Source: Emticicia sp. BO119
GTDB lineage: Bacteria; Bacteroidota; Bacteroidia; Cytophagales; Spirosomataceae
DNA length: 64,000 nucleotides
Assembly: GCF_013912375.1 (NCBI RefSeq)
Contig: NZ_JACETV010000001.1
Location: 806,001-870,000 of the forward strand
Direction: 5' to 3'
In this document: positions 28,679 to 47,549 of the stretch, piece after piece
Position numbering within the stretch: the first letter of the stretch is position 1
Layout of the letters: each line of letters opens with the position of its first letter
The notes under the pieces: model-generated
Database searches by the model: none
The model's input: the letters and a program-made list of their open reading frames with translations, nothing else
What the model was told of the DNA's origin: nothing
Translations under genes and position numbers: made by a program

Positions 28679-29056
28679 TTAAGGGTGGGTTACTTTATGA
28701 CCCAATTTGGTTAAAAAAAATGGGTCAATAGTTGGCAATAACACACCCTTAGTTTTTCCCAACTCTAATTTTATACCATTTAGAGCAAGTAATTCAACTG
28801 CCTTAAAATATTTCCTTTCTAAATCTTTTTCTGCTTGAGATGTAATAATATTATTACTTCCGTCGATTAGAAATGTTACAGGAACGTCTAAATAATCTGC
28901 GAATTTTTGTAACGTGTTTAGATTTATACTCTCTCTCTTAAACATGTTTAAATAAGATTGACGTGGTATATCAATCGCTACAAGCACATTTTCTCTAATT
29001 AAACCTTTCTGTTTAATTGTGTCTTCAATGTTGTTTCTGATTTTTTGATAGTTCAT
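28679..29056 (-). CDS. Phage-type HTH repressor
   Basis: 125 residues. Residues about 5-60 form a lambda-repressor-like helix-turn-helix (IDIPRQSYLNMFKRE then INLNTLQKFADYLDVPVTFLI). The C-terminal half is helical without a LexA-type autoprotease motif, so induction by RecA self-cleavage is unlikely. It is divergent from the rightward early genes, with palindromic operators between, like a CI-type lysogeny switch. Confidence 0.75.
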   Translation of the reverse strand: MNYQKIRNNIEDTIKQKGLIRENVLVAIDIPRQSYLNMFKRESINLNTLQKFADYLDVPVTFLIDGSNNIITSQAEKDLERKYFKAVELLALNGIKLELGKTKGVLLPTIDPFFLTKLGHKVTHP

Positions 29057-29060
29057 ATTT

Positions 29061-29119
29061 ATTTACTTTTAAAAATACATTGTAAATATTTTGCTTTTTA
29101 TGTAAATAATTATTTACAT
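29061..29119. promoter_or_regulatory. Operator cluster in the repressor-early region
   Basis: ATGTAAATAATTATTTACAT at 29100-29119 is a perfect 20-bp palindrome. Further half-sites of type GTAAATA lie at 29081 and, inverted, at about 29061, with another at about 29186. They sit between the divergent repressor and early genes, as expected for repressor operators. Confidence 0.6.
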
Positions 29120-29219
29120 TTGTGTGAAATATCACTTTGCTATGTCGAAATAACGTAAACTTTTTGAAATGGCAATCAATCAAAGTAAATATTTTTCATC
29201 ATTAACAACCCTTTAACAA

Positions 29220-29549
29220 ATGAAAGACTTAGCATCACTAATAGAACATGAAAGTTCCAATGCGGAAAAAGAGGCTCAAAGTAAACTAGACCCAAATTCG
29301 ATTGGGACAGTTCGTACATATTCATCAAAGCTAAGTCCTGAACTAAAGGAGAGTTTGAAAAATACCAATAAGTCAGGTGATTTTATGACTACTATAGTTA
29401 TTAATCGAAAAATTGATATTAAGGAGTATTTGACAGGACCAATAGTTATCAAGCTCTTCTTTCCCAAAGATTATGTTAAAAGAGGTTCTATTGTTTTGCG
29501 GAGTCTTTCGGTCTTAAGAGTTCTAAAACCCCCTCAAGAGCCTCTATGA
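29220..29549 (+). CDS. First rightward early gene, unknown
   Basis: 109 residues, soluble. No family recognised. Its position, first gene across from the repressor, is that of a cro-like or anti-repressor gene, but no helix-turn-helix is evident. The 3' end overlaps the convergent gene by 62 bases, which is unusual and makes the C-terminus less certain. Confidence 0.5.
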   Translation: MKDLASLIEHESSNAEKEAQSKLDPNSIGTVRTYSSKLSPELKESLKNTNKSGDFMTTIVINRKIDIKEYLTGPIVIKLFFPKDYVKRGSIVLRSLSVLRVLKPPQEPL

Positions 29550-29961
29550 TTTGCTCAATTTCAAGGCCGTAGGGGATAAGTTCTGCGGAGAGGTCTTTGT
29601 TTAATCCAATTACCATTAGGTAATCATTCTGGTTCCATACCCTATTTACCTCTTCTGCAAATTCAGTATCATCAAGTTCAGTGTTAATCTTAATAGATTT
29701 TGTGGTTATGAGTTTGTCTTTTACAAATTGTTGCAAATAGTAGTCGAAAGTATTTGCAATTCGTGCGAAGTCAAGGTTAAAGTTAATCATTTTATCAGTG
29801 TCCGCTTTCTCATCAAGCCCAATTGCGATAAAATGTGTGGACTCGTCAAACAGATTGTTTAGGTCGCTTTTGAATTTGTCTCTGTTGGTGGGTGTAGTAG
29901 TGATTTCAGAGTTCCTTGAAGTAGTTTCTTTTTTGTCGTCAGTAGATTGGTTGTTTTTCAT
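29488..29961 (-). CDS. Two-repeat alpha-beta protein, unknown function
   Basis: 157 residues. After a polar Ser/Thr-rich N-terminus there are two similar units of about 50 residues: FKSDLNNLFDESTHFIAIGL and FAEEVNRVWNQNDYLMVIGL, each followed by a second helix. The same single unit seems to occur in the small proteins at 31835 and 37295. It is read leftward from the conserved hairpin at 29971-30043. Function unknown. Confidence 0.55.
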   Translation of the reverse strand: MKNNQSTDDKKETTSRNSEITTTPTNRDKFKSDLNNLFDESTHFIAIGLDEKADTDKMINFNLDFARIANTFDYYLQQFVKDKLITTKSIKINTELDDTEFAEEVNRVWNQNDYLMVIGLNKDLSAELIPYGLEIEQIIEALEGVLELLRPKDSAKQ

Positions 29962-29970
29962 TTTTTAGTT

Positions 29971-30043
29971 AGCAAAGGTTGGAAAAAGGGGGAGGGGTGA
30001 AGACTCTCCCTGACCTTTGAGATAAGCAAGTTATTTAGTTTTT
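29971..30043. repeat. Conserved divergent hairpin, copy 1
   Basis: A nested inverted repeat: outer arms CAAAGGT and ACCTTTG, inner arms AGGGGGAG and CTCTCCCT (one G-T pair) around a GGGGTGAAGA loop, then TTATTTAGTTTTT. A second copy with the same inner stem lies at 31712-31784. Both sit between a leftward and a rightward gene. It could be a replication origin, a bidirectional promoter or an operator. Confidence 0.65.
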
Positions 30044-30080
30044 CAATCATTTTCAATATCAAATTTTAACTTTTAAACAA

Positions 30081-30500
30081 ATGAATACATACGCTATAAA
30101 TACTGAAAATGACATTCAGTTAAACGAAGTCTCTCCGGGCTATCATTCTTCTCCCATGAAAAGTTTAGCTATTACGCTTAGGCTTCCCTCTAAGCAAATG
30201 CACTCAGACGACGAAGTAAGAAACAATATTTTCTTACCCATCATCAATGCAATCCTATTGGTTCACAGTGCTGGAGTAGAATCGGTAGAAAGCAAGATTT
30301 CTACTGAAAATGAAAACTTGATTTGTCACGCAAGATTTTACGGCATGGTAGATATAGCGGCAGTAGAAAAAGATTGGAATAGTATTCTGGATTCATTTGG
30401 ATACGCACAGGCCGCTATTAGCCTTGATGCTTCATTAGGTAGGGTCAATTTGAAAAGAGAGTCTTTTTATCCTGCTTCAACTTTTATCGCTGAATATTAA
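30081..30500 (+). CDS. Catalytically degenerate HUH Rep-fold protein
   Basis: 139 residues. Residues about 28-50 (LAITLRLPSKQMHSDDEV) align with the first HUH-Rep strand of the two Rep homologues downstream (ITLTLPSKQVHTDQ). The later DWNSILDSFGY aligns with their KWNQYIERLGY. The HUH signature itself is lost (CHAR instead of HFH) and there is no C-terminal tyrosine region. It may be a decoy or regulator that binds the origin. The next gene starts 12 bases downstream. Confidence 0.6.
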   Translation: MNTYAINTENDIQLNEVSPGYHSSPMKSLAITLRLPSKQMHSDDEVRNNIFLPIINAILLVHSAGVESVESKISTENENLICHARFYGMVDIAAVEKDWNSILDSFGYAQAAISLDASLGRVNLKRESFYPASTFIAEY

Positions 30501-30512
30501 TCCTGTACCAAT

Positions 30513-31301
30513 ATGAATAGCACACTCAGTCATTCAGGCGTATATAACGGTCATCTCTCACCAGAAACCAAAAAGCAAATTAAAGAGAGATTGGATAAAT
30601 GGTTAGCTGACCTTTCAAAAAAAGCAGAGTTGAAAAACTTGCCTAAAGATTTTGACCCTGCTCAACCTTATCCAACATTTATTACCCTCACGCTTCCATC
30701 AAAACAGGTTCATACCGACCAGATTATTAAAGAGAAGTGTTTCTTATTCTTCTTTGACCGGCTCTCTGTTCAGTATGATATAAAAAATTACTTCTGGAAA
30801 GCTGACTACGAGGAAAATGGCAATATACGCTTTCATCTGGTAATAGATAAATACATTCATTCGGACAAGCTACGAGCGCAATGGAATCATGCAATTGAGT
30901 TTTTAGGCTACGTCACTCGCTACAGAAAAACTATGCTTGAGTTCCATAAAGACGGATTCGCTATAGATGGACAGCGCTTAGAAAAGGATTTAGCTTCTTT
31001 CCAGCGAATTGTAAATAAGTTCAATACTACTGGCAAAATGCCAAAGATATGTAATGCTCAGTTGCTTGAGTTGTTAAAAGAATCTAAGTCTAAAAGCATC
31101 TCCATAACAGAAGACCATATTATGATTATTGCTCAAAATGTTCAGATGGATGCATATTATTTGGGGCAATATGACAACTGGGCCAACCCTAGTACTACCC
31201 AGATAGATTCAATATTGAAGTTTAATCGAAGTCTTCGTTTTCTAAATCTTCATCATCATTGTTTAACCGAGCAATTTGGTAAGCCTCCCAGACAAGGTTA
31301 A
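30513..31301 (+). pseudogene. Truncated Rep homologue with a broken HUH motif
   Basis: 262 residues, closely similar to residues 95-330 of the intact Rep at 38083. Shared blocks include YPTFITLTLPSKQ, NYFWKADYEENGN and LGYVTRYRKTM. The HUH signature reads RFH instead of HFH. The homology stops at NPSTTQIDSI, just before the catalytic tyrosines. The last 26 codons run antisense over the leftward gene ending at 31222. This looks like a partial duplicate, probably non-catalytic. Confidence 0.65.
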
Positions 31302-31701
31302 AAAGAGATTCTCCCTTTTCAGGTAAGCCAAATGAATAGAAGTCCGATGAGAAATTCAATACATTGATGTCGTCAACTATCAATACTACAGATTTAGCGT
31401 CAATGAGGATTGTCTGAATATTTTTTAGGAAGTGGGTTCTGCTGTGGTTTGGAACAGGTTGTTTGTGGGTTTTAGCAAGTATTCTTTTCTCAGGGCTTTT
31501 TAATTGAAGACTGCGGCCATAAAGTTCATTACTAAGTGGTGCCGGATTTTCGTCCAAAGCATAGAAATTGATGGAAAGTTCGCCGCTATCGTCATTATAA
31601 ATTAGAAAAGCAGCTTTTGAATTATTAATTGCCTCAATAGCAGATTTTAGGAATAAGTCTCTAGTTGGAAAGGATTGAATGTAATGGTTTTTAGATAGCA
31701 T
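31222..31701 (-). CDS. Two-repeat alpha-beta protein, second divergent module
   Basis: 159 residues from the ATG at 31701. I chose this start because it lies the same distance from the conserved hairpin as the start of the gene at 29961; a longer frame to 31767 would read through the hairpin. It has two units (RDLFLKSAIEAINNSKAAFLIYND and RTHFLKNIQTILIDAKSVVLIVDD) and an acidic tail. It is the positional counterpart of the 29488 gene. Function unknown. Confidence 0.55.
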   Translation of the reverse strand: MLSKNHYIQSFPTRDLFLKSAIEAINNSKAAFLIYNDDSGELSINFYALDENPAPLSNELYGRSLQLKSPEKRILAKTHKQPVPNHSRTHFLKNIQTILIDAKSVVLIVDDINVLNFSSDFYSFGLPEKGESLFNLVWEAYQIARLNNDDEDLENEDFD

Positions 31702-31711
31702 TTTTATAGTC

Positions 31712-31784
31712 AGCAAAGGTTGAATATAGGGGGAGGGGTGGTGTACTCTCCCTAGCCTTTGAGACACGCAAAATATTTAGTTTT
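31712..31784. repeat. Conserved divergent hairpin, copy 2
   Basis: Same architecture as copy 1: AGCAAAGG with CCTTTG outside, AGGGGGAG with CTCTCCCT inside, loop changed to GGGTGGTGTA, followed by ATTTAGTTTTT. The stem bases are kept while loop and spacer bases vary, which argues for selection on structure or on a protein-binding site. Confidence 0.65.
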
Positions 31785-31834
31785 TCTTTAATAATCAATA
31801 CCAAAAAAATAACATTTCTAACTCTACTAAAATT

Positions 31835-32068
31835 ATGGCTCACGTGATTACTGAACAAGTCTCAAAGCAGATAAAGGATGAATTTGAGGAGATTTTGAAA
31901 AATCATGGAATTGAAGAATATATGTTCCTGATAAGCGATGGTAGAATACTGGCTCAGGAAGCCTCAATAAAAGAAGGAACGCTCATAGGAGCTATTGCTA
32001 CTTCCATTGAAAATATGGTGTCTGAAACTTGTGTGATTCTACCACCGTCTCGTAAGCATCTTAATTAA
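31835..32068 (+). CDS. Small helix-strand protein, one-unit relative of the two-repeat genes
   Basis: 77 residues: helix (IKDEFEEILKNHG), strand pair (EEYMFLISDGRILA), helix (LIGAIATSIENMV). It resembles the 67-residue protein at 37295 (EALLKKHGVDNYYIMFGD). Read rightward from hairpin copy 2. Function unknown. Confidence 0.55.
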   Translation: MAHVITEQVSKQIKDEFEEILKNHGIEEYMFLISDGRILAQEASIKEGTLIGAIATSIENMVSETCVILPPSRKHLN

Positions 32069-32078
32069 TATAACTAAT

Positions 32079-32441
32079 ATGACAAAGCCCAGAGCAGAAT
32101 TAAACGGATTCAGCGATAAAAGCGAACCCGTTTCAATCTTCAACATCATCGGTCAACGATACCAATCAGCAACTATAGCCGAAAAGGAACAATTCATTGC
32201 CATTGCAGAAACCAAAGCATTGGAGTTAGGGAGTGAGCAAAACAACTTCGCTCAGATGTTCCGCCAAACCCAGAGTAAGCTACCGATTGCGAATGTTAAA
32301 ACTTACTTCCTCCATGCTGCCCATTTAGTGTGGGGTTTAGAATTCGACTTAACAGTTAAGGCCCGTTCAAAAGACGCTAAAACGATTTATTCAGAATTCG
32401 AGGGCAAATCTATTGCCGTCACTATCGAACCTGTCTTATGA
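32079..32441 (+). CDS. Unknown early phage protein
   Basis: 120 residues, soluble, helical. No family recognised. It is followed by a tightly packed series of small genes leading to the exonuclease, the stop overlapping the next start (ATGA). It probably belongs to the early DNA-metabolism operon. Confidence 0.55.
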   Translation: MTKPRAELNGFSDKSEPVSIFNIIGQRYQSATIAEKEQFIAIAETKALELGSEQNNFAQMFRQTQSKLPIANVKTYFLHAAHLVWGLEFDLTVKARSKDAKTIYSEFEGKSIAVTIEPVL

Positions 32442-32590
32442 AAGCCTTTCCTCTACTAATCTCACTACTTCCAATTACGCTTTTAATTCTGTGTGTAGTT
32501 ATAGCGATTCTTAAGTTTTTAACAATCGCTATCCATAGTTTTTTGAAAGAGCAATACAACCGTTTCCGGTATGGACGACCTTCAAAATAG
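32438..32590 (+). CDS. Small membrane protein
   Basis: 50 residues starting with an ATGA overlap. A single hydrophobic span (LLISLLPITLLILCVVIAI) is followed by a basic, aromatic tail. Length and layout are those of small phage inner-membrane proteins. Function unknown. Confidence 0.5.
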   Translation: MKAFPLLISLLPITLLILCVVIAILKFLTIAIHSFLKEQYNRFRYGRPSK

Positions 32591-32690
32591 CCAAGCTTTG
32601 CAAAAACTGATAGACGAAATAGAATACTTTATCTGGTACTATATCACGATCTGTCAGCCCACTGAATCAGATAAAGACTTACCATTCTGA
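32571..32690 (+). CDS. Tiny acidic protein
   Basis: 39 residues (MDDLQNSQALQKLIDEIEYF start), overlapping the preceding gene by 20 bases and ending two bases before the next start. The tight packing supports it, but its size makes it uncertain. Confidence 0.4.
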   Translation: MDDLQNSQALQKLIDEIEYFIWYYITICQPTESDKDLPF

Positions 32691-32692
32691 CT

Positions 32693-33142
32693 ATGGCAGC
32701 AAATACTACCTACGACCCTTTATTAACCATCAGAAGGTATTTAGGGATTGATTCAAATAAGTATCTGAGTTCTGTTCCAACAATATTTGACCCTGTACTA
32801 ACAGCTAAATTATCCCTGAAAATGATACATGTACCACCCTCATTAATACCGACTGGTAAGACAATTGTCAGGCATAGAATTACTCCAACCAAGAAAGGCA
32901 CAGCAGAGCATGCTGAATGGCTTGATTTGGCTAAGATTATTCATTGCTTAGAGAAACTGATTGATTTTGATGAAAGAGGCCGTAAAGTCGTGGTAGATGT
33001 ATTAAATGATGCTCTTTCAAGACAGGTAATTACTGAAAGCGGTAAGGAGTATATTTTGACTAACCTGAGTAAGAAGCTGGAACAATTGCATGTAGATGTA
33101 GAAAATAAGTTTACTAAACCTAAAACGGAAGTAAAACAATGA
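32693..33142 (+). CDS. Unknown early phage protein
   Basis: 149 residues, soluble, mainly helical C-terminus (KEYILTNLSKKLEQLHVDVE). No family recognised. Overlaps the exonuclease start by four bases, suggesting coupled translation and a related role in DNA metabolism. Confidence 0.55.
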   Translation: MAANTTYDPLLTIRRYLGIDSNKYLSSVPTIFDPVLTAKLSLKMIHVPPSLIPTGKTIVRHRITPTKKGTAEHAEWLDLAKIIHCLEKLIDFDERGRKVVVDVLNDALSRQVITESGKEYILTNLSKKLEQLHVDVENKFTKPKTEVKQ

Positions 33143-33897
33143 TACTTCACCGCCCTATAGTTTTTTTCGACTGTGAAACTACCGGAGTAGACAAGGAAAA
33201 CGACCGCATTATCGAACTGGCCCTATGCAAACTCCATCCTGATTGGACAAGAGAAACCAAATGCCGAAGATTAAACCCTGAAATGCCTATTCCTCCGAAA
33301 TCTACCGAAGTGCATGGCATTACCGATGCTGATGTAAAAGATTGCCCGACTTTCAGACAGGTTTCTAAATCAGTATTTCAATTTTTCGAGGGATGCGATT
33401 TGGGTGGCTTCAATTCTAATGCTTTTGATATTCCAGTACTATTTAATGAGTTCGCCCGTGTGGGTATGTATTTCCCTTACAAGAACAGACGCTTCATTGA
33501 TGCTGGTAATATCTTTAAGATTCAGGAACCTCGCACCCTGAGTGCAGCTGTAAAATTCTATACAGGTAAAACCCTAAACAATGCTCACAATGCCGAAGCG
33601 GATATTTTAGGGACTGTAGATGTATTTGAAGCACAAATTCAAAAGTATCCTGAACTGCCCCATGACCTGGACGAATTGCATAAATTCTGCAATTTCGGTA
33701 AACCTATTCTTGATTTATCAGGCAAGTTCACTACGAACGACCAGGGCGAAGTAATTATCAATTTCAGCAAGTCTCATAAAGGCAAACTAGCACACGAAAA
33801 TTTAGATTTTCTGGCATGGATGGTATCGGCGAATTTTCCGGCTGACACGGTTGAAATCGCCAAAGGTATTTTACAAGAACATGAATTTCACTATTAA
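33139..33897 (+). CDS. DEDDh 3'-5' exonuclease (DNA Pol III epsilon-like)
   Basis: 252 residues. Exo I motif FFDCETTGVD gives Asp11 and Glu13. The middle EVHGITDADV is typical of the epsilon branch, Exo II is in FNSNAFDIPVL, and Exo III is HNAEADILG with its His and Asp. It degrades single-stranded 3' ends and probably acts in phage replication or repair. No polymerase gene accompanies it here, so the host enzyme would be used. It directly precedes the DGR. Confidence 0.88.
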   Translation: MILHRPIVFFDCETTGVDKENDRIIELALCKLHPDWTRETKCRRLNPEMPIPPKSTEVHGITDADVKDCPTFRQVSKSVFQFFEGCDLGGFNSNAFDIPVLFNEFARVGMYFPYKNRRFIDAGNIFKIQEPRTLSAAVKFYTGKTLNNAHNAEADILGTVDVFEAQIQKYPELPHDLDELHKFCNFGKPILDLSGKFTTNDQGEVIINFSKSHKGKLAHENLDFLAWMVSANFPADTVEIAKGILQEHEFHY

Positions 33898-33912
33898 ACA
33901 ATCATACAATCA

Positions 33913-34356
33913 ATGAAAGCAAAAGTAAAAGTCAATGATGGGGACACTGTAGAAATCGAACTGACTCCTGAACAAATCACAGAATATGAGCGCAAATCTA
34001 AAGGTTTTCGCAGCATCAAAACCGTAGAAGATGCCTTTGAATTTCTAGGTATTAACTATCAGGAATGGCTTGATAAACGCAACAATTTAGAACCCCATGA
34101 AATCGCCTATGGACAACTCACCATCATTGCAAAAGCCTTGAATGGCGGAGAATGGATGACCTATGATGATACCGACAAATATAAGTATTATCCTTGGTTT
34201 CACGCTAAAGGTTCTGGCTCTGGTTTCGCGTTTGACGACTACGGCTGCGGTGGCGCGTATTCGGGTGTGGGTTCCCGCCTCTGTTCTAAATCGCGTGAAA
34301 TCGCCGAATATGCAGGTAAACAATTCTTAAATATCTATAACCAATACATCAATTAA
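33913..34356 (+). CDS. DGR variable protein 1
   Basis: 147 residues. The variable repeat lies at residues about 100-124 (SGSGFAFDDYGCGGAYSGVG then SRLC), followed by an invariant tail (SREIAEYAGKQFLNIYNQ). The upstream part includes GEWMTYDDTD and YYPWF, which recur in variable protein 2. Differences from the template repeat occur only at adenines. It probably displays a diversified binding surface. It is not encoded in the structural region, so its ligand and location are open. Confidence 0.88.
   Translation: MKAKVKVNDGDTVEIELTPEQITEYERKSKGFRSIKTVEDAFEFLGINYQEWLDKRNNLEPHEIAYGQLTIIAKALNGGEWMTYDDTDKYKYYPWFHAKGSGSGFAFDDYGCGGAYSGVGSRLCSKSREIAEYAGKQFLNIYNQYIN
34210..34283 (+). repeat. Variable repeat 1 (VR1)
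   Basis: From GGTTCTGGCTCTGG at 34210. In the 38-base variable core starting at 34234 I count 12 differences from the template repeat, all at its 16 adenines (11 to G, 1 to T), while 22 non-adenine positions are unchanged. It ends with GTTCCCGCCTC, shared with VR2 but not with the template. Confidence 0.93.
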
Positions 34357-34361
34357 AACTC

Positions 34362-34738
34362 ATGAAAAATCTCGAAACCTTTGAAGCCGCTACTATTAGC
34401 TTAGGCATTGACCCAACCATTTTGCCCCAAGTGGAAGGTATTGAACCCGGACACGGCAAAGCGATTACCTCGCAATACAAACTTTATGTCATTAGTCAGG
34501 CTGCATGGAAGGCCGAAGGTAAACTGATCGACTGGAACGACTATGACCAGGCTAAATATTATCCGTGGTTTGATATGGAAAATTCGTCGGGTTCTGGCTC
34601 TGGTTTCGCGTTTGCGGCTACGGCTGCGTTAACACGCATTCGGATGTGGGTTCCCGCCTCGTGTATCCAAGCCGCAAAGCGGCCGAATTCGTAGGCGAAA
34701 CGCATTTGGGATTGTATAAAGACTGGATGGTACTATAA
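34362..34738 (+). pseudogene. DGR variable protein 2, frameshifted inside its variable repeat
   Basis: Paralogue of variable protein 1, starting five bases after its stop. The frame runs normally to FAF in the variable repeat. One adenine-position base is then missing relative to the template, and the frame ends at 34694 after an unrelated tail. With the base restored, the protein would continue through DVGSRLVYPSRKAAEFVGE and end at 34738 (about 125 residues), matching paralogue 1. Either retrohoming introduced the deletion or it is an assembly error. Confidence 0.8.
34583..34660 (+). repeat. Variable repeat 2 (VR2)
   Basis: Shares TTCGTCGGGTTCTGG with the template at its 5' end, slightly further upstream than VR1. 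The variable core has 9 substitutions and one single-base deletion, all at template adenines. The 3' end GGTTCCCGCCTC agrees with VR1. Confidence 0.93.
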
Positions 34739-34763
34739 AGAAATAGGTGGTATGCTGTAGTGC

Positions 34764-34841
34764 TTCGTCGGGTTCTGGCTCTGGTTTCGCGTTTAACGAC
34801 TACAACTACGATAACACGAATTCGAATGTAGGTTCCCATCA
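34764..34841 (+). repeat. DGR template repeat (TR)
   Basis: Non-coding repeat between variable protein 2 and the reverse transcriptase. Its core is rich in AAC, AAT and TAC codons when read in the target frame (N-D-Y-N-Y-D-N-T-N-S-N), the usual way a template maximises amino-acid diversity. It ends GGTTCCCATCAC where both VRs have GGTTCCCGCCTC. Confidence 0.93.
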
Positions 34842-34949
34842 CTGCTATTAAAGATTTAACAGTATACACCTTGGCAACAAGCCAAAAAATAAAAGTTTGA
34901 ACGGGCGCTGGTACTCAACAGGAACGCGACTAACTAAAGCAGAGGCAAT

Positions 34950-35918
34950 ATGAAAAGAATAGGAAATTTATTTGAAACAGTTTATAGCATTGGCAATTTG
35001 TATAAGGCCGATAATCTGGCACAACGTGGCAAGGCTAAACAGTTTGGGGTAGTTCTTCATAACTCCACCCAGGACGAAAACTTGTTGAAGCTTCAAACGA
35101 TGCTAGTCAATAAAACCTACCAAACCTCTGACTATAAAGTTTTCAAGGTATATGAGCCGAAAGAGAGGGAAGTGTATCGTTTGCCTTACTTCCCAGATAG
35201 AATCACACATTATGCGATAATGAATGTATTAGAGCCAATTTTTATGTCTGTCTTTACAGCTGACACTTACAGTTGCATCAAAGGCAAGGGCATTCATTCG
35301 GCACTACGAAACCTGAAAGAAGCCTTGAAAGATGTGGAAGGCACAACGTATTGTTTGAAATTTGATATTACTAAATTTTACCCGTCCGTTGATCACGATA
35401 TTTTAAAGGTTCTACTAAGAAAGAAATTTAAAGACAACGATTTGCTATGGCTGTTAGATGAAATCATTGACAGCGCACCAGGATTACCCATAGGAAATTA
35501 CCTCAGCCAATTTTTCGCTAATTTCTACCTTACCTACTTTGACCACTGGCTGAAAGAACAAAAAGGAGTGAAGTATTACTTCCGTTACGCTGATGACATT
35601 GTGATACTATCTGACAACAAACTAAAGCTTCACATTTTGCTATCAGAATGTAGGCAGTATCTCAGTCAAAATTTAAAACTCCAGATTAAACCTGATTATC
35701 AGATTTTTCCGGTTAAAGCCCGGGGTATTGACTTTGTTGGCTACAAATGTTTTCACACGCATACGTTGCTTAGAAAGTCGATTAAAAAACGGTTTGCAAA
35801 AGCTATCAAAGCGGGTAAGGGAAAAGAAACCTTAGCGAGTTATCTGGGCTGGGCAAAACATGCTGACACTATAAACTTATTGACTAAACTATTAAATGAA
35901 CCAGTTCAAAGAATTTAA
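34950..35918 (+). CDS. DGR reverse transcriptase
   Basis: 322 residues. Motif A is KFDITKF with Asp139. Motif 4 is GLPIGNYLSQ (178-187), whose IGxxxSQ form rather than QGxxxSP is characteristic of diversity-generating reverse transcriptases. The active site is YADD (213-216). There is no maturase or endonuclease domain, so it is not a group II intron enzyme. It copies the template RNA with adenine-directed errors and delivers the cDNA to the VRs. It starts about 109 bases after the template repeat and overlaps the next gene by 23 bases. Confidence 0.93.
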   Translation: MKRIGNLFETVYSIGNLYKADNLAQRGKAKQFGVVLHNSTQDENLLKLQTMLVNKTYQTSDYKVFKVYEPKEREVYRLPYFPDRITHYAIMNVLEPIFMSVFTADTYSCIKGKGIHSALRNLKEALKDVEGTTYCLKFDITKFYPSVDHDILKVLLRKKFKDNDLLWLLDEIIDSAPGLPIGNYLSQFFANFYLTYFDHWLKEQKGVKYYFRYADDIVILSDNKLKLHILLSECRQYLSQNLKLQIKPDYQIFPVKARGIDFVGYKCFHTHTLLRKSIKKRFAKAIKAGKGKETLASYLGWAKHADTINLLTKLLNEPVQRI

Positions 35919-36189
35919 CATCATTGCTGAAAACAGCACTTTCATTGGCGATAAGGTCAAAATTAGTAAAGTGCTTAATAGAAAAATTGAAGTACACACT
36001 TATAAAGTAGAAGACTCTAAACACAACCCTGGTAAGTGCTTATGCTTGCAAATTAAAATGGATGGAAAAGACCATATCATTTTTACAGGTTCAACAGTAT
36101 TACTGGCTACCATCCAAAAAGTGCCAAAGGATAAATTTCCTTTTGAAACAACCATCATTGAAGAAAACAAAATGTTTCAGTTTACCTAA
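35896..36189 (+). CDS. Small partner gene overlapping the DGR reverse transcriptase
   Basis: 97 residues, beta-rich, soluble: KCLCLQIKMDGKDHIIFTGS in the middle and PFETTIIEENKMFQFT at the end. I recall similar small proteins next to reverse transcriptases of this DGR subtype in Bacteroidota phages. Its start overlaps the reverse transcriptase gene. It does not resemble the Avd accessory protein, a four-helix bundle, and may take its place. Confidence 0.6.
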   Translation: MNQFKEFNIIAENSTFIGDKVKISKVLNRKIEVHTYKVEDSKHNPGKCLCLQIKMDGKDHIIFTGSTVLLATIQKVPKDKFPFETTIIEENKMFQFT

Positions 36190-36200
36190 TTGCCAATAAA

Positions 36201-36536
36201 ATGAGCATGACCCTGAACACCGAATTGACCTTGATAGACAAGATTCAAGCCGCTTTAAAAACACGAAATAAGGACGATTTAAAGGCAGTCACTTACCTGT
36301 TAAGAATCAAATGCCATCAGTCGGGAACAGATATGTTGGAGTTTCTTGCAGATAAGATTTTTGTGCCTTCTACGGCCTTAGAAACGGATAAATCAGATTT
36401 TGCCTGCCCTTATTGTCCGCAAGATTCAGCGCAGGTTTACAACGGTTTTGCAGGTCTGAAAACCCACATTAGCAAAAAGCATTCACAACACTTTCAGGAG
36501 TGGAAGAAAACAATAAATCCTGTTCACTTAATCTAA
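36201..36536 (+). CDS. C2H2 zinc-finger protein
   Basis: 111 residues. The C-terminal part has a classical C2H2 finger: CPYC, a 12-residue-type spacer containing FAGLKTH, and the pair THISKKH. The N-terminal 60 residues are helical. Single-finger proteins of this sort occur in phages and plasmids and are thought to bind nucleic acid. The next frame overlaps its 3' end. Confidence 0.65.
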   Translation: MSMTLNTELTLIDKIQAALKTRNKDDLKAVTYLLRIKCHQSGTDMLEFLADKIFVPSTALETDKSDFACPYCPQDSAQVYNGFAGLKTHISKKHSQHFQEWKKTINPVHLI

Positions 36537-36544
36537 CTATTGAT

Positions 36545-36772
36545 ATGTGTCATGGACAATGCAGATTTCAAACCCACAGCAATTTTACAACTTGTATAGC
36601 CTGTGGATTCACTGCTAAAACGGCAGTATTCGAAGCGGCCTTTGAGGAAAATGAAGAAACCAATTTCGATTATTCTCAATGGGCGCAACAGCAACATGAT
36701 TGGAACGAACCTATAAACGACCATTGGGACGAATATGGAAAAGAAAATACCAACCAAGCAGGAGAAGAATAA
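36545..36772 (+). CDS. Small Cys-rich acidic protein
   Basis: 75 residues from the internal ATG (MCHGQCRFQTH), chosen because it avoids overlap with the zinc-finger gene; a longer frame starts at 36500. Cysteines in CHGQC and CIAC could form a zinc ribbon. The rest is acidic. Function unknown. Confidence 0.45.
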   Translation: MCHGQCRFQTHSNFTTCIACGFTAKTAVFEAAFEENEETNFDYSQWAQQQHDWNEPINDHWDEYGKENTNQAGEE

Positions 36773-36860
36773 GAAGTACTATCTTATCAAATCTGCAAAA
36801 AAACTCAATCCATTAGATTTTTACATAAGTGCCGGACTGTTTTCATTAGCGAGCATATAG
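36735..36860 (+). CDS. Small basic protein
   Basis: 41 residues (MEKKIPTKQEKNKKYYLIKS start), overlapping the preceding gene by 38 bases in another frame. The basic composition contrasts with the acidic neighbour. It is supported only by position and an uninterrupted frame. Confidence 0.3.
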   Translation: MEKKIPTKQEKNKKYYLIKSAKKLNPLDFYISAGLFSLASI

Positions 36861-36953
36861 TGCCGTCAAAATACATTTACTCCCTTAGAGATAGTTTCGG
36901 GTATTCTATTCAACTAACCGCTTTGTAAGTAAACACAAATTAATCTTAACTCT

Positions 36954-37283
36954 ATGAATGCAAGAGTAAAACAACTTTGGATTGATGCCTTAAGGAGTGG
37001 TAGATATTATCAAACCTTTCATGAATTTCGAGTTCAATTTATTAACGATTGCGATTGTTATTGTGCATCTGGTGTGCTAATGCATCTCTATAGCCAAGAG
37101 GTTACTAGAATTTCAAATTGGGATAGTATTCCAATCGAGGTTTTAGAATGGGCAGAACTTCCAACAGCGACCCCTAGTCCGAATGATTCTGCTAACGAAT
37201 TCAGTATTTACGATGTAATTGAATTGAATGATGGGTTAAAATCATTTGCTGAAATAGCTGATTTTATTGAAGAACACTTTTAA
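36954..37283 (+). CDS. Conserved phage/plasmid small protein of unknown function
   Basis: 109 residues. The pattern WIDALRSGRYYQ, then a Cys-containing CASGVLMHLY, then VLEWAEL, and finally ELNDGLKSFAEIADFIEEHF is one I recall from many phage and plasmid hypothetical proteins. No function has been assigned to it as far as I know. A promoter probably lies in the 93-base gap upstream, which contains TAGTTTCGGG. Confidence 0.6.
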   Translation: MNARVKQLWIDALRSGRYYQTFHEFRVQFINDCDCYCASGVLMHLYSQEVTRISNWDSIPIEVLEWAELPTATPSPNDSANEFSIYDVIELNDGLKSFAEIADFIEEHF

Positions 37284-37294
37284 CAATCTCAATT

Positions 37295-37498
37295 ATGACT
37301 AACAAGAAAGCCAATGAAGTAAAGCAAGATATTGAGGCATTGCTTAAGAAACATGGGGTTGATAATTATTACATAATGTTTGGCGATACTAACGATGTTT
37401 TCGTAAAAGGTCATGTAAAAGATGGAACTCAACTATCAATGTATTGTAGTGCTTTTACAGCGGTATTAATTGCTAATGGTGAAACTAAGAAATATTAG
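37295..37498 (+). CDS. Small helix-strand protein, relative of the 31835 gene
   Basis: 67 residues: helix VKQDIEALLKKHG, strands NYYIMFGD and DVFVKGHVKDG, helix SAFTAVLI. Similar to the 77-residue protein at 31835 and to single units of the two-repeat proteins at 29488 and 31222. Function unknown. Confidence 0.55.
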   Translation: MTNKKANEVKQDIEALLKKHGVDNYYIMFGDTNDVFVKGHVKDGTQLSMYCSAFTAVLIANGETKKY

Positions 37499-37502
37499 AA
37501 AA

Positions 37503-37940
37503 ATGGAAAATCTAACTGAAAAGCAACAAGAAGCATACATACACTTCTTAGAACATTATCCCAAAGCCGTAGATAGGTATATATATGGTGGTATGGCTAA
37601 AGACCATGTTATTTCTCAATCAATTGTAAGCATTCTAATCAAGAAAGGTTATTTAGTTAACGCGAAGCCTAAGCTAAACGCTTATGAGAGGTCGTTATTT
37701 CTTGCTATTCCACAAGATGAAGATTTAATCAATCTGCCATTAGAAGTTGGTTTGGCTTTTGATAATGGGTTTCGTTTAACAGAAGTCTTAAGGGTTAATG
37801 AAAAGATAGTAGTTGCAAAAATTACTTATCCATCAGGGCATCAATACAATGCTCATTGGCCTATCAAACATACCCTTTGGGGCATTCCTGAGGATTTGAA
37901 GCCCAAGTTACGTTCAAACGAGCAGGAATCTATGTTCTAA
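37503..37940 (+). CDS. Unknown phage protein
   Basis: 145 residues from the ATG at 37503 (MENLTEKQQEAYIHF), preferred to an upstream start that would overlap the previous gene by 29 bases. Soluble; the N-terminal half is helical, the C-terminal half beta-rich with GHQYNAHWPIKHTLWG. No family recognised. Confidence 0.55.
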   Translation: MENLTEKQQEAYIHFLEHYPKAVDRYIYGGMAKDHVISQSIVSILIKKGYLVNAKPKLNAYERSLFLAIPQDEDLINLPLEVGLAFDNGFRLTEVLRVNEKIVVAKITYPSGHQYNAHWPIKHTLWGIPEDLKPKLRSNEQESMF

Positions 37941-37990
37941 GCCTTTGGCTTGTCTAACGCTCGGTTTTACCTTTTTTTCTCTTTTACAAT

Positions 37991-38070
37991 AACTCGGAGA
38001 CTCCATGCATTCACGTCGTAAATGGCGTCAATGCCGGCAATAACGCCGAATGTGGAGTTAAATGCAGCTA
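37991..38070. repeat. AACGCCA-family element upstream of rep
   Basis: Contains AACGCCGAATGTGGAGTTA at 38042-38060, followed by GCAGCTA, and an inverted relative (ATGGCGTCA) at 38022-38030, preceded by ACTCCATGCAT. The same AACGCCA-N5-GGAGTTA core recurs at 40771 (inverted), 49390 and 49637. Because it covers an upstream ATG at 38062, the Rep start is better placed at 38083. Confidence 0.6.
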
Positions 38071-38082
38071 AATAAATCGGTT

Positions 38083-39615
38083 ATGAGTCAATTTGATATT
38101 TTCGGTAACGTAGCCACGCCAAAAAAGGCGTTGGCAACTGCATTGAAAAATAGTATGCTAAAGCAGGTCAGCAAAAGTCATGATGATGATAACGACACTA
38201 CCCGCGTATTAGCTACAATCAAAACTACTGCAACTATTAAACCTCACGTGATTGTTGTTAGTAGCAAATTCGGAAAAGCTTCCTATCCAGGAAGCCCGGA
38301 AGAGGCCGCTAAATACATTCAATCACAGAACTCATTAAAAAACCTATTACAAGAAACTGATAAGTTGTATAATGGTTATCTCTCGCCGAATACTAAGCGT
38401 ATGATCAAGAAAAGGCTTGACAATTGGCTTACAAGTATCTCAGAGAACGTAAAATTCAAGTATTTAAAAAAAGAGGTCAATAGAAATCAAGTATATCCTA
38501 CTTTCATCACCCTTACCTTACCTGATAAACAAAAACATAAAGACCAAACTATAAAAGATAGGTGTTTCATGCCTTTTATAGAATGGTTAACCAGTGCGTC
38601 TCAGGAAGTTGACCGTAAAGGAAACCCTAAAGGCTGCGGGGTACAATGCTACTTCTGGCGTGCAGAAACACAGAAAAACGGCAATGTTCATTTTCACCTG
38701 ATAGTAGATAGATATATACCCTACGACAGACTTCGAAAAAAGTGGAATCAATACATTGAAAGACTCGGGTATGTGACCCGGTATCGCCAAAAAATGCAGT
38801 TTATCTATGAAAATGGCTTTGTAGTGAATACTAAGCAACAAATGTTTGAAGTTCAGCGATTGAGAAAAATTGCAGACAGGTTCAATAAAACCAAGAAAAT
38901 GCCTAAAATCTCGATGCAAAGATATAGCCGTTTGCTGGATGAAATGAAAGAAGCAACCCGGCTTAACCGTAAGGTATCAGAAGATACTTTGTATGCTGTA
39001 GCGGAAGAAATGCAAAGAGATGCCTATTTCATGGGACAGGATAATAACTGGTCTAATCCTAATACAACCGATATTAAAAAAGTAGATAATATTGCCTCGT
39101 TAGCCTCTTATGTATGCAAATACATAGCCAAAGATGTAGAAACTGCTCCGCTTTTAGCTAATCAGACCTTTGAAGAATCCAACGGAAAAAAGTATGTAGT
39201 TACTGCTACTCAGGAAGACGGAATAACTTTCATAGTTAGTAAGGAAGAATACAAACCCGTTTTCCTCGTCCGTAAAGTTCGGGGCCGTATTTGGGGCTGT
39301 TCTGATAATCTACGTTCAAAAGAAGTAGAATATCCTAAATATGAATTAGTTGAAGAGGAACGCGTATTGGATAGTGACCCTAAAGCTGTTAAAAAGTTCT
39401 ATAATCGTACGCTTGGTAGGAATTACATAGCTACTGAATGCGTAGATGCCGTCAAAAGTGACAAGAAGCATGTACGCGAATTTAGGGTTAATGACTTCTG
39501 TGTAACATATTCAAGCAAACAGGGCATAAAACCTTTACTCACTAAACCCATACAGCAAGACTACACGATTCATTACCAGAACTTATTTAGAAATCTGTAT
39601 GGTACAAGCACCTGA
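38083..39615 (+). CDS. HUH-endonuclease replication initiator (Rep)
   Basis: 510 residues from the ATG at 38083. Motif 1 is PTFITLTLPDKQ, motif 2 (HUH) is NVHFHLIVD with His203 and His205, and motif 3 is ASYVCKYIAK with Tyr343 and Tyr347. The two tyrosines four residues apart are the pattern of phiX174 A and P2 A proteins. It would nick an origin, stay covalently bound to the 5' end and drive rolling-circle replication. Two degenerate homologues lie at 30081 and 30513. This is the only complete initiator in the element. Confidence 0.85.
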   Translation: MSQFDIFGNVATPKKALATALKNSMLKQVSKSHDDDNDTTRVLATIKTTATIKPHVIVVSSKFGKASYPGSPEEAAKYIQSQNSLKNLLQETDKLYNGYLSPNTKRMIKKRLDNWLTSISENVKFKYLKKEVNRNQVYPTFITLTLPDKQKHKDQTIKDRCFMPFIEWLTSASQEVDRKGNPKGCGVQCYFWRAETQKNGNVHFHLIVDRYIPYDRLRKKWNQYIERLGYVTRYRQKMQFIYENGFVVNTKQQMFEVQRLRKIADRFNKTKKMPKISMQRYSRLLDEMKEATRLNRKVSEDTLYAVAEEMQRDAYFMGQDNNWSNPNTTDIKKVDNIASLASYVCKYIAKDVETAPLLANQTFEESNGKKYVVTATQEDGITFIVSKEEYKPVFLVRKVRGRIWGCSDNLRSKEVEYPKYELVEEERVLDSDPKAVKKFYNRTLGRNYIATECVDAVKSDKKHVREFRVNDFCVTYSSKQGIKPLLTKPIQQDYTIHYQNLFRNLYGTST

Positions 39616-39838
39616 GCCCCTAAAACGGTTCGGATGCTGGCAGGTTTTCCCCGGTGGAGATATGGAAAATGAAGCCCTTGGATATGAGATTACAGCCGAC
39701 CGACTTATTGAGTCGGACTGGTGGGTTTCGTTCCTTACCGAACCGAAATTTGATTGGAACACCTTTATCCATGCGTATTTCTTCGCATGCCAAGAAGCAA
39801 AAGTTGAAATGATTAATCTTAAGATGAATTTTTTATAG
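39599..39838 (+). CDS. Small unknown protein overlapping rep
   Basis: 79 residues, overlapping the rep 3' end by 17 bases and touching the start of the methyltransferase gene. Aromatic and acidic (DWWVSFLTEPKFDWNTFIHAYF). No family recognised; it may be translationally coupled in the operon. Confidence 0.5.
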   Translation: MVQAPEPLKRFGCWQVFPGGDMENEALGYEITADRLIESDWWVSFLTEPKFDWNTFIHAYFFACQEAKVEMINLKMNFL

Positions 39839-40560
39839 TGGAAAAACCATTCGAGACATATTTTGGCGGAAAAGGCTCACAGGGAACTTATCAGGCCATC
39901 ATCAACCATATTCGTCCACATCAACGTTTCGTAGAAGTCTTTGCCGGGAATGCTACTATTTCCAGAAAAATGAAACGGGCTGACGAAAATATTTTAATTG
40001 ACCTGAACCCAACAGTGTGCGAACGATTAGTTGAATGTATGGAAGGGTATAAAGTTGTTAATCAATCAGGCATTGAGTTTTTGAAAAATGAGTTAATAAA
40101 TCCAAGTCTATTAAAAACGGCCTATTTTATTGACCCTCCTTATTTGATGGAAACTCGTAAGTCGGCTAATCAATATGAATTTGAATTAATACCCGCAGAG
40201 CATGAAGAATTATTACAGGTAGCAGTTAAACTTGATAATCCGAATAATGATTTACTAATCTGTACCTATCCCCATGATTTGTATAAAGACTATCTAAAAG
40301 GATGGTTTTTATATGAATATCAAAGCACCACACGCGGAGGATTGGCTACAGAATGGTTATTTATGAATTACCATGAATCTGACATTACCGATTTACATGA
40401 TTATACTCATCTTGGTGGCGGACACAGAGAAAGGCAGTTATATCGCAAGAAAATGAAGCGTTGGTTAGAGAATTTTGGCGAATTACCTCAACTGTTCCAA
40501 AACCAACTATTGGCAGAATTGCTCAAGGAGCACCAAATACGGCGTGAGGTGATGAAATAG
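39838..40560 (+). CDS. D12-class adenine DNA methyltransferase (Dam-like)
   Basis: 240 residues from a GTG start. Motif I type block RFVEVFAGNATIS around residue 31-43, and catalytic DPPY at 99-102 (FIDPPYLMET). It transfers a methyl group from S-adenosylmethionine to adenine N6. The specificity is unknown. No restriction gene is adjacent, so it is an orphan enzyme probably protecting phage DNA or regulating it. Confidence 0.85.
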   Translation: MEKPFETYFGGKGSQGTYQAIINHIRPHQRFVEVFAGNATISRKMKRADENILIDLNPTVCERLVECMEGYKVVNQSGIEFLKNELINPSLLKTAYFIDPPYLMETRKSANQYEFELIPAEHEELLQVAVKLDNPNNDLLICTYPHDLYKDYLKGWFLYEYQSTTRGGLATEWLFMNYHESDITDLHDYTHLGGGHRERQLYRKKMKRWLENFGELPQLFQNQLLAELLKEHQIRREVMK

Positions 40561-40856
40561 CTGCAGTAACGCCAATACTGGCGTGCAGGTACCGAAGCGT
40601 GACTCCGCAGCGGCAGGGGATTCAAAGAATTTCACAACTCTGCCTTTAGCGTGACTCGAGTGACTGTATAAATAGCGTGATGAGATCTGAATGTGAAAAA
40701 GCTCAGAACGGTAATGTAATAGTTTTCACGGTAGATATCACAACGCCATTAAAAGAGTGAAACCATGGTCTTAACTCCATTTATGGCGTTTTAGGCCCTT
40801 GAAAATAACAGGAAAAATCATTCCTGATTATAACGCCAAAAACAGCGTGCAGGACC
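40561..40856. repeat. Intergenic region packed with phage repeat elements
   Basis: No gene in these 296 bases. AACGCCA-family elements: 40568-40589, 40742-40760, 40771-40790 (inverted) and 40832-40853. One 39-bp TGTGA element at 40692-40730 (last base G instead of A). CCATGG occurs twice next to the elements. Confidence 0.7.
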
Positions 40857-41732
40857 ATGGAACAATCAAAGACAACGCCATTAATGCAGTTTATTCCGGA
40901 TAAAATATCAATACAAGATTCAGGCTTTCAGCAATTAGTGTTGAGCCTGTTTCCAAATATTGGTATGCTTGATTCAGGTTTTGTGCGAAATGGCTTTACT
41001 GTAGTTACTGCTCCTGATAAGATTGTAAATGGTGAGATTAGAGATTTTAAAGGAGTGCCTGGGCGGTTTGATGGTATCATAGGCGGCTCACCTTGTCAGG
41101 ATTTTAGCGGTTTGAATAGAAATCCCGGTACACTCAGTCAAGAAATGCTTGACGAATATAAACGAATAGTTCGGGAGTGTCAGCCAGATTGGTTCTTATT
41201 GGAAAATGTAACTCGTGTACCTGATGTAGAGATTGAGGGATACTATGTACAAAGATTCAATCTCTCACCAACCGATTTAGGGTTTGAACAATCACGCAAT
41301 AGAACCTTTCAGTTTGGAACTAAAGACGGTCGGATTATCGAACTCCCTGAACCTGTCAAGTATAATGGCAAACGTGAAAGGTGTGTAACAGCTAGTGAAG
41401 GGAATAAACCTGACAGACGGACATTTGAAGAATTTTGTAAGCTACAAGGTTTCACCGAAGTGCCTGAACTCGGCAGTTTTACCAAGTCAGCAAAGTACCA
41501 AGCAATAGGCAACGGAGTGCATTTAGGGGTTTCGTATGTGATAGCACGTTATTTGAAAAACGCCATTTTTTCACGGTATCCTAAGACGATTTTTAATACT
41601 AAAGTATGTGCCTGTGGATGTGGTAGAATTGTCTCTGGAAGAAAGCTAAGTTACAATGATGCTTGTAGGAAAAGAGTACAATTAAAACGTGAAGTTACCT
41701 GGAATGATAACAGTAAAATTGTCACAGTTTGA
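40857..41732 (+). CDS. C5-cytosine DNA methyltransferase (Dcm-like)
   Basis: 291 residues. Motif IV is GGSPCQDFS with catalytic Cys80, motif VI is LENVTR, motif VIII is QSRNRTFQF, and motif X is YQAIGNGVHLGVSYVIA. The target-recognition region is short. The C-terminus has a Cys cluster (CACGCG and NDACRKR) that could bind zinc. The 5' end overlaps an AACGCCA-type element (40873-40891). Orphan enzyme, no cognate nuclease nearby. Confidence 0.88.
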   Translation: MEQSKTTPLMQFIPDKISIQDSGFQQLVLSLFPNIGMLDSGFVRNGFTVVTAPDKIVNGEIRDFKGVPGRFDGIIGGSPCQDFSGLNRNPGTLSQEMLDEYKRIVRECQPDWFLLENVTRVPDVEIEGYYVQRFNLSPTDLGFEQSRNRTFQFGTKDGRIIELPEPVKYNGKRERCVTASEGNKPDRRTFEEFCKLQGFTEVPELGSFTKSAKYQAIGNGVHLGVSYVIARYLKNAIFSRYPKTIFNTKVCACGCGRIVSGRKLSYNDACRKRVQLKREVTWNDNSKIVTV

Positions 41733-42013
41733 TCTAAAAATGTGAGCCTCCGGAAGTAATTATTTGAGCATTATTCACAGACAAGTTTAAACAAGTGTGA
41801 CAGACCAGGAGAGACCAAGTAGCAAAGACTCACATTTTGTCACAGTTGAAAAATGTATAAATGATTGTTTTCAGAAAGATACTTGATTAATAATCAAGTG
41901 CTTATATAATGTTTGCGGCATCAATGTCGCAAACATTAAATGTGATTCGGCAGCCGTGATTTAACCGGTACAATTCACAATGAATTTTTCACAGAAATTG
42001 TTATTTAATAAAT
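41733..42013. repeat. Repeat-rich intergenic region, candidate origin
   Basis: 281 bases. 39-bp TGTGA elements at 41741-41779, 41796-41834 and 41941-41979. Two perfect inverted repeats: ACTTGATT with AATCAAGT (41881-41899), and AATGTTTGCG with CGCAAACATT (41908-41937). The density of palindromes is the highest in the window, which fits an origin or a packaging site. Confidence 0.65.
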
Positions 42014-42292
42014 ATGGCACTACATAAACTAAAAACATGGCCTGAATATTTTCAGGCAGTATGGGCAAAGGAAAAAACGTTTGAAGTCCGTTTAAACGAC
42101 CGAAATTTTAAAGTTGGTAATAAGCTTTGGCTACAGGAATTTGACAATAAAAAGAATGAATTTACTGGTAGATATATCCAAACTAGAATCACTTATATAT
42201 TATTGGGTGGCTCTTTTGGTGTGATTGAGGGTTATTGTGTATTGGGTATTTCAGAAGAAATAGTAGGATTCAATTTTAGTAAGCCATTGTAA
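42014..42292 (+). CDS. DUF3850 (ASCH/PUA-like) protein
   Basis: 92 residues. The sequence HKLKTWPEYFQAVWAKEKTFEVRLNDRNF followed by VGNKLWLQEFD and YILLGGSFGVIEGY is the DUF3850 pattern, a PUA-like beta barrel related to ASCH domains that bind RNA. Such genes are frequent in phages. No catalytic residue is established. Confidence 0.75.
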   Translation: MALHKLKTWPEYFQAVWAKEKTFEVRLNDRNFKVGNKLWLQEFDNKKNEFTGRYIQTRITYILLGGSFGVIEGYCVLGISEEIVGFNFSKPL

Positions 42293-42304
42293 TAGTTTAA
42301 GATT

Positions 42305-42490
42305 ATGGCAGGACAAACTACAAATTTGCCACTAAACAGAGACGAATTTTGCCAACGTTATAGATGCTCAAAAAAAACATTCCAAAGATGGATTACTATC
42401 TATGGATTAGAATCTGCTGTGCCTAATATTAGAAAAATCAAATCTTTTACCCGTAATCAAAGTCAGCTAATTGTGGATATACTAGGTTAG
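42305..42490 (+). CDS. Small HTH DNA-binding protein
   Basis: 61 residues with a helix-turn-helix (RDEFCQRYRCSKKTFQRWITIYGL). No other domain. It may act as a phage regulator or excisionase-like factor. A 10-bp hairpin follows at 42562-42592. Confidence 0.55.
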   Translation: MAGQTTNLPLNRDEFCQRYRCSKKTFQRWITIYGLESAVPNIRKIKSFTRNQSQLIVDILG

Positions 42491-42561
42491 TTAAAATTTA
42501 TATCAATCTGGCTATTTGTGGACAATTATGGTTTGATATGGCCATAATTTGGAAGCGATTC

Positions 42562-42592
42562 TTAAGACTTTGTAATTTTAGTAAAGTCTTAA
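42562..42592. promoter_or_regulatory. Perfect 10-bp hairpin in front of a GTG start
   Basis: TTAAGACTTT (42562-42571) pairs with AAAGTCTTAA (42583-42592), 13 bases before the GTG start at 42606. Its position in front of the start could make it a terminator for the upstream gene or a translational control element. Confidence 0.5.
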
Positions 42593-42605
42593 AAATCTAC
42601 CAATC

Positions 42606-43157
42606 GTGAACCAATCCAATCACCCGACAAAAGAAATCGCTGAAAATGTAAGCAATTGCTTAAAGGCAATCACTATTGCTGATGCCGCAAATGATAGAAT
42701 CGGAGGCGTGTCCATCACTTCTAAACAAAAAGCCTTAATTTCTGCGATTTCTGTCTCTCTCAATTCGGATGAAAATCAAATATCCGAACAATTAATACTT
42801 CGAAAGATCTTGGAAGCTTTGGCAATAGGCGCGTTAATTCCTGCTTCTTCTCTATCTCGGTCATTATCTGCAATAAATAACTATCTGCCTGTTCAGGCAT
42901 TTGACCCGAATCAATACGTCGAAAGGGCGGTATATGATGAACTCAGGTCAGAGTACGACCAGATTTATGCTGATGCAGGCTCAGATAATATAGTAATTAT
43001 GAGTAGAGAAGAATACGAAGAATTAGGATTATCCGAAGAACAAATCGGGGAGATTGTCAACATTGCTCAGCAATATGAGTACCCTACAGCCGTACAGATT
43101 GTTAAACAATACCTATCAGACGAAGAAAATGACGAAGACGTATCTAGCGGTTATTGA
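42606..43157 (+). CDS. Unknown helical phage protein
   Basis: 183 residues beginning at a GTG. Mostly helical, acidic at the C-terminus (REEYEELGLSEEQIGEIVN and a DEENDED tail). No family recognised. Overlaps the next gene by 29 bases. Confidence 0.55.
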   Translation: MNQSNHPTKEIAENVSNCLKAITIADAANDRIGGVSITSKQKALISAISVSLNSDENQISEQLILRKILEALAIGALIPASSLSRSLSAINNYLPVQAFDPNQYVERAVYDELRSEYDQIYADAGSDNIVIMSREEYEELGLSEEQIGEIVNIAQQYEYPTAVQIVKQYLSDEENDEDVSSGY

Positions 43158-44357: not shown

Positions 44358-44517
44358 GTGTGATAGATCGATAAATGGTAGAGCCTTAATTTTCACAGAT
44401 GTGATTCATCAGGATAGACCAGGTAGCAATGATTCACATTTATTCACAGATAAAATGTGAACGCCCGGCTGTGATGCAGCTCTCAATATTCACACAACTT
44501 TTTTCACAGGTAATTGA
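44358..44517. repeat. Three consecutive 39-bp TGTGA elements
   Basis: Copies at 44359-44397, 44400-44438 and 44456-44494, plus an extra TTCACA between and after. They separate the gene ending at 44357 from the ATPase gene, whose ATG follows directly. The third copy has the internal TGTGA at offset 14. Confidence 0.75.
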
Positions 44518-45267: not shown

Positions 45268-45272
45268 TTCTT

Positions 45273-46459: not shown

Positions 46460-46461
46460 CC

Positions 46462-47536: not shown

Positions 47537-47549
47537 AGTAGCCAAAAGG

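Follow-up and report, generated by a model that had tools for sequence, protein, structure and literature searches.

A two-target diversity-generating retroelement with a candidate reverse transcriptase companion in Emticicia sp. BO119

Organization of the retroelement

The stretch of DNA analysed here, referred to as the window, comprises 64,000 nt of the genome of Emticicia sp. BO119 and carries on its forward strand the genes and repeats of a diversity-generating retroelement (DGR). Two small target genes come first, target 1 (33913..34356; 147 aa, intact, phrog_11581 family with a PHROG match of E 1.8e-21) and target 2 (34362..34694; 110 aa as the ORF now reads), and are followed by a 74-nt template repeat (TR, 34764..34837), by a reverse transcriptase gene (RT, 34950..35918; 322 aa) that begins 112 bp after the end of the TR, and by a short gene that overlaps the RT stop codon (ORF97, 35896..36189; phrog_19665, of unknown function). 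Two variable repeats align to the TR. VR1 (34210..34276; aligned to TR positions 34771-34837) is internal to target 1, with a C-terminal helical segment after it, and VR2 (34583..34655; aligned to 34764-34837) lies inside target 2.

Over its 67 aligned bases VR1 mismatches the TR at 12, all among the 16 TR adenines (11 A>G and one A>T), and is unchanged at every one of the other template bases (0/51), a pattern with P ~3e-10 under random placement of mismatches. VR2 has nine substitutions, 9/9 at adenines, and in addition lacks one adenine (34795 or its neighbour; P ~1e-7 for the adenine-only pattern). An earlier note on this DNA, which had proposed aligning the three repeats as a check, had described adenine-only differences at 12 of 16 adenines in VR1 and nine substitutions plus one deletion, again at adenines only, in VR2; our realignment found the repeats at the positions it gave and returned the same counts. 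Translated in the target frame the TR reads SSGSGSGFAFNDYNYDNTNSNVGS, and a stop codon cannot be reached in this frame by any substitution of its adenines.

Directly 3' of the repeats lies an IMH-like block that reads CCCGCCTC in VR1 and VR2 vs CCCATCAC in the TR, so that non-adenine differences between VR and TR are present there. The full block, assigned by analogy, is GTGGGTTCCCGCCTC in both VR1 (34267..34281) and VR2 (34646..34660) and differs from its IMH*-like counterpart in the TR, GTAGGTTCCCATCAC (34828..34842). The asymmetry corresponds, by analogy with other DGRs, to the usual VR/TR border of IMH vs IMH*, and it is repeated in a second DGR of the same genome (on contig C24, see below). 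No inverted repeat of at least 7 bp was found downstream of VR1 or VR2; a stem-loop is not a defining DGR feature, because even in BPP-1 it is not an absolute requirement (PMC12875486).

The conserved frame of target 2 would run to 34738, and the 1-nt deletion in VR2 brings it to a stop at 34694, so that of the two targets at this locus one is intact and the other frameshifted. The target 2 orthologue in the second DGR (G000:C24:44704-45084) is intact. The earlier note was right that the two targets share one template and had missed the frameshift. Comparable VR indels exist elsewhere, namely a 1-nt insertion that breaks the target at locus L072 and an in-frame insertion at L065, which suggests that the process itself gives rise to a VR indel now and then. 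It is improbable that the DGR once diversified both targets and is now an inactive relic, with the frameshift as the start of its loss: the deletion does break the frame, and other loci nearly always have unbroken targets (146 short-TR pairs fall within intact small target ORFs), but RT, TR, target 1 and ORF97 have all kept open frames, other loci have VR indels of their own, and the BPP-1 DGR refilled an 18-nt gap in its target when reconstituted in E. coli (PMC12875486). The loss of target 2 could be reversible because retrohoming copies the TR, which keeps the frame, and a further round of retrohoming might in principle overwrite the frameshifted gene from the intact TR. It is likewise unlikely that the deletion reflects faulty sequencing or assembly and that target 2 is really intact, since the assembly tells the three repeats apart elsewhere and L072 has a VR indel of like kind, even though errors often take the form of one missing base and similar repeated sequence 182 bp apart favours misassembly.

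The reverse transcriptase and its lineage

The RT matches phrog_1423 (E 6.9e-122) and carries the motifs IGNYLSQ at 35490, which is of the I/V/LGxxxSQ type, and YADD at 35586. The closest solved RT in the PDB is that of the BPP-1 DGR (8ub7, E 4.7e-48), against only ~1e-14 for the retron-type and group II intron RTs there. In a maximum-likelihood tree of 96 RTs, which holds group II-like RTs and no certified retron and in which some deep long-branch joins are unsure, the window RT is sister to the RT of the other DGR of the genome (100/100) and falls among DGR RTs, separate from the group II-like RTs of the family. It also scores below the cut-off for TIGR04416 and for the retron models, and a retron or group II intron was rejected on the strength of the PDB values, these scores and the tree. 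The class that the earlier note had assigned to the RT from its two motifs is thereby borne out, as is the grouping with DGR RTs, rather than group II-like RTs, for which it had suggested a phylogeny.

Relatives of the RT were drawn from 80 viral and 64 genomic loci; the lineage is represented by 146 RT-bearing loci. Across 197 distinct TR-VR pairs of related loci, 2833 of 4356 template adenines were changed vs 36 of 11856 other bases, a ratio that is biased toward a DGR because mismatches outside adenines are penalised in the scan. When G was set as the mutable base, the scan recovered the same pairs in the opposite direction, which A>G changes would lead one to expect, and with C it recovered none. 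The gene order in the lineage is target1-target2-TR-RT-ORF97, and two layouts can be told apart. In layout A, to which the window belongs, the TR is ~65-88 nt, the VR is internal and the targets are ~120-170 aa (a few are longer), usually with at least two of them immediately before the TR at distances that vary little (TR at ~-175, VR2 at ~-370 and VR1 at ~-760 from the RT start). Layout B has a longer TR, of ~110-140 nt, and a large target with a terminal VR. Among the aligned layout-A targets 98/102 matched phrog_11581, a family of unknown function.

Sequence comparison thus places the window DGR as one member of a coherent and widespread lineage of Bacteroidota phage DGRs. Two targets on one template are conserved in this lineage and are not unusual among DGRs generally, several VRs being reported for ~29% of DGRs (PMC6642488). 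The multi-VR cassettes G2 and G4 described there resemble the window DGR in that a single TR serves several VRs, but they are defined by repeat arrangement only. The BPP-1 DGR (brt, avd, TR, mtd) shares with the window a DGR-type RT, adenine-only change, the IMH/IMH* asymmetry and a TR just upstream of the RT. It differs in having one 381-aa tail-protein target with the VR at the gene end, whereas the window has two targets of the ~120-170-aa class with internal VRs, in its longer TR (134 vs 74 nt), in its downstream stem-loop, of which the window VRs have no equivalent of at least 7 bp, and in having Avd, whereas the window DGR has ORF97 and gave no Avd match.

Possible role of the target proteins

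The AlphaFold2 model of target 1 is mostly helical and confident overall (pLDDT 88.7), with the VR forming a low-confidence loop (~55). Foldseek found no PDB match for this fold (best E 1.8, with the VR loop modelled at low confidence) and, among viral models, returned uncharacterised phage proteins only. Neither Pfam nor PDB sequences gave a match to the target, and no C-type lectin domain is recognised around the VR, whose loop is again of low confidence in the model. A published survey describes annotated VR regions as consistently adopting a C-type lectin fold, placed C-terminally in the target (PMC8144416), and the last ~27 VR residues resemble large lectin-type tail targets (hhalign probability 91), so a derived or truncated lectin-like element is possible. 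The idea of a wholly new VR scaffold fold was downgraded, as this profile comparison ties the last residues to lectin-type VRs.

The neighbours of layout-A cassettes are replication, transposition, Mu-Gam, packaging and head genes, and no tail family is present among their commonest matches. In LoVEphage, a Bacteroides phage, the homologous target has methyltransferases, a restriction-alleviation gene and a tRNA ligase as its neighbours and is well separated from the tail genes; compared with the TR beside the RT ~16 kb away it has 11 of 25 adenines changed and no other base. By family assignment this target agrees with the non-structural DGR target reported for Quimbyvirus (PMC8008677), both belonging to phrog_11581. 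The Quimbyvirus/LoVEphage DGR (PMC8008677) shares with the window a phrog_11581 target, adenine-only rewriting and an ORF97 domain next to the RT, which is frameshifted there. It differs in that its first target is tail-linked, its TR is longer (a 112-nt match) and its second target is ~16 kb away, whereas both window targets are phrog_11581 members directly upstream of the TR.

Gene position, the lack of recognised tail domains and this one published case together suggest that the layout-A targets probably act inside the cell and are non-structural. The targets would then be small cytoplasmic early proteins, not tail fibres, and their variable loop would bind changing host factors, perhaps defence components. 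The alternative that they are minor virion or adhesion proteins, and that the DGR alters host attachment as in BPP-1, has in its favour that tail proteins are most viral DGR targets (PMC8144416) and that the end of the VR is like large tail-type targets; we hold it to be doubtful, as the genes sit with replication and packaging genes and no common tail family nearby, the proteins are of only ~120-170 aa without a recognised virion domain, and the LoVEphage homologue is found in a methyltransferase/anti-restriction region at a distance from the tail genes.

ORF97, a candidate companion of the reverse transcriptase

A homologue of ORF97 abuts the RT in 85 related loci and lies within 1.2 kb of it in another 21. 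The ORF97 domain is fused to the C-terminus of the RT in 11 loci (L141-L148, L113, L117 and L073), giving proteins of mostly ~411-436 aa in Bacteroides and other DGRs, and in LoVEphage it adjoins a frameshifted RT. Our scan of 295 sampled genomes of the class gave six ORF97 matches, all beside or fused to a DGR-type RT. Two archaeal viruses, ANMV-1 and vir525, also have a homologue after the RT. The ANMV-1 DGR (PMC4372165) has the RT directly followed by the ORF97 homologue, as in the window, but its single target, AdtA, is large and adjoins tail genes. The homologues directly after the archaeal-virus DGR RTs (KP703175.1 36106-36402 and BK063673.1 38029-38316) are annotated as hypothetical.

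ORF97 has no sequence match in Pfam, NCBIfam or the PDB. Its model is confident and beta-rich (pLDDT 91), and Foldseek gave weak, non-significant matches only, several of them to OB-type nucleic-acid-binding domains (best E 0.068). With NF033474 as the probe no Avd was detected at E 0.01 in the whole genome, nor in LoVEphage, ANMV-1 or vir525, and the Avd of BPP-1 was recovered as the positive control; NF033474 replaced PF05635 because the latter misses BPP-1's own Avd. Like the accessory proteins Avd (NF033474), HRDC and MSL, ORF97 is a small gene tied to a DGR RT, but in contrast to them it is predicted to be beta-rich and matches no NCBIfam or Pfam model.

The adjacency to the RT, the fusions, the occurrence with DGR RTs only in the sampled genomes and the absence of an Avd match make ORF97 look like an alternative RT companion. 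On association and fusion, we propose that it is probably an unrecognised companion of the RT, and in DGRs with no Avd match it would form part of the RT complex, as a separate subunit or as a domain. That ORF97 merely travels downstream of the RT by chance seems to us unlikely: neighbouring phage genes can be co-inherited and the function of ORF97 is not known, but it accompanies RTs in archaeal viruses as well as in Bacteroidota phages, forms a C-terminal fusion with the RT in 11 loci and never stands apart from a DGR RT in the 295 genomes. Our literature search, whose range ended short of the DGR accessory-gene survey 10.1093/nar/gkx1150, turned up no published name for ORF97, so an earlier description of it is possible.

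Proposed mechanism and significance

By its sequence the system is a DGR, as seen in the adenine-only change, the DGR-type RT, the stop-free TR/VR frame, the IMH/IMH* asymmetry and the conserved cassette. The earlier note had named it correctly, as a complete DGR with two variable repeats, on adenine-only change and a DGR-type RT with the TR nearby. It had not picked up the unusual carrier, ORF97 or the genome's second DGR. The explanation that joins these observations, a complete two-target, one-template DGR of a Bacteroidota phage lineage with ORF97 as the putative partner of the RT and with presumably intracellular targets, is in our judgement very probable. By analogy with BPP-1, the RT would copy TR RNA and make errors where the template has adenine, and the resulting cDNA would then take the place of the VR in one or the other small target gene, as far as the IMH site within the coding sequence; target 2 would at present be switched off by the deletion in VR2.

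The best studied DGRs alter surface-binding proteins and depend on Avd. The lineage described here departs from that form in its small tandem targets among early genes and in a different, unnamed candidate partner of the RT. We tentatively extend the explanation to a joint reading, plausible though somewhat short of probable, in which ORF97 may be a core DGR component that replaces Avd and this branch of DGRs may diversify small intracellular phage proteins. In that case ORF97 would bind nucleic acid, either as a partner of the RT or as one of its domains, both in Bacteroidota phages and in archaeal viruses, and the cassette would be a phage hypermutation system directed at intracellular host factors. 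If confirmed, phages would hypermutate proteins that act inside the cell, and the RT plus ORF97 would provide a compact system for targeted mutagenesis. A DGR with two VRs is already known in kind, and the small, probably non-structural targets extend a single published case more widely; the candidate RT companion and the carrier merit attention, ORF97 being the newest point.

The carrier element and mobility of the cassette

The DGR is carried by an integrated element whose approximate extent, judged from gene content, is 28679..61206 (~32 kb). It encodes a repressor-like gene (28679-29056), an HUH Rep (38062-39615; PF23343, E 9.7e-9), a P-loop ATPase (44518-45267), an M23 peptidase (45890-46459) and a pectate-lyase-type spike (55004-57166), together with lysozyme-like genes and many one-TM proteins. 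No terminase, portal or major capsid was present among the PHROG matches listed (25 of 43). The ATPase had no relative in viral contigs and its profile no match in the PDB, and the Rep had no relative in the phage collection. A conserved protein of 216 aa from the carrier is found in this genome only, among 291 of its order.

The second complete two-target DGR of the genome (G000:C24:44234-46532; L004, L150) has both targets intact, and its RT is 78% identical to the window RT. The two cassettes share 70% DNA identity from 34015 to 36189 of the window, ending at the stop codon of ORF97. The C24 carrier reads as a tailed prophage, with ORFs that look like portal, terminase and tape-measure genes. 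A sister element of the window carrier, at G000:C1 ~289.5-327 kb (L208-L210), is syntenic and has no DGR. The tailed C24 prophage, the HUH-Rep element of the window and this DGR-less sister indicate by comparison that the cassette target1-target2-TR-RT-ORF97 has moved as a unit between unrelated elements. Two copies of it on unrelated elements in one genome make it possible to compare directly how cassettes of this kind move.

Several further observations concern the carrier and its surroundings. The carrier possibly represents an undescribed group of non-tailed viruses, and it is nearly unique in its order. The DGR is placed between two Rep-like genes (30513-31301 and 38062-39615), which are 43% identical over 240 aa, the first being a truncated paralogue. 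At the position of the window's pectate-lyase spike the C1 sister has a 1041-aa fibre-like gene, a possible swap of the receptor-binding protein. Beside the carrier, on the reverse strand, lies a Septu-type defence pair (25419-28465; PtuB- and PtuA-like, PADLOC E 8.9e-64 and 7.3e-178). Two large neighbouring genes, 9757-11628 and 11754-13697, have recurring NTAxG-type motifs and a C-terminus that may be an intramolecular chaperone, with relatives also near C24:31-37 kb.
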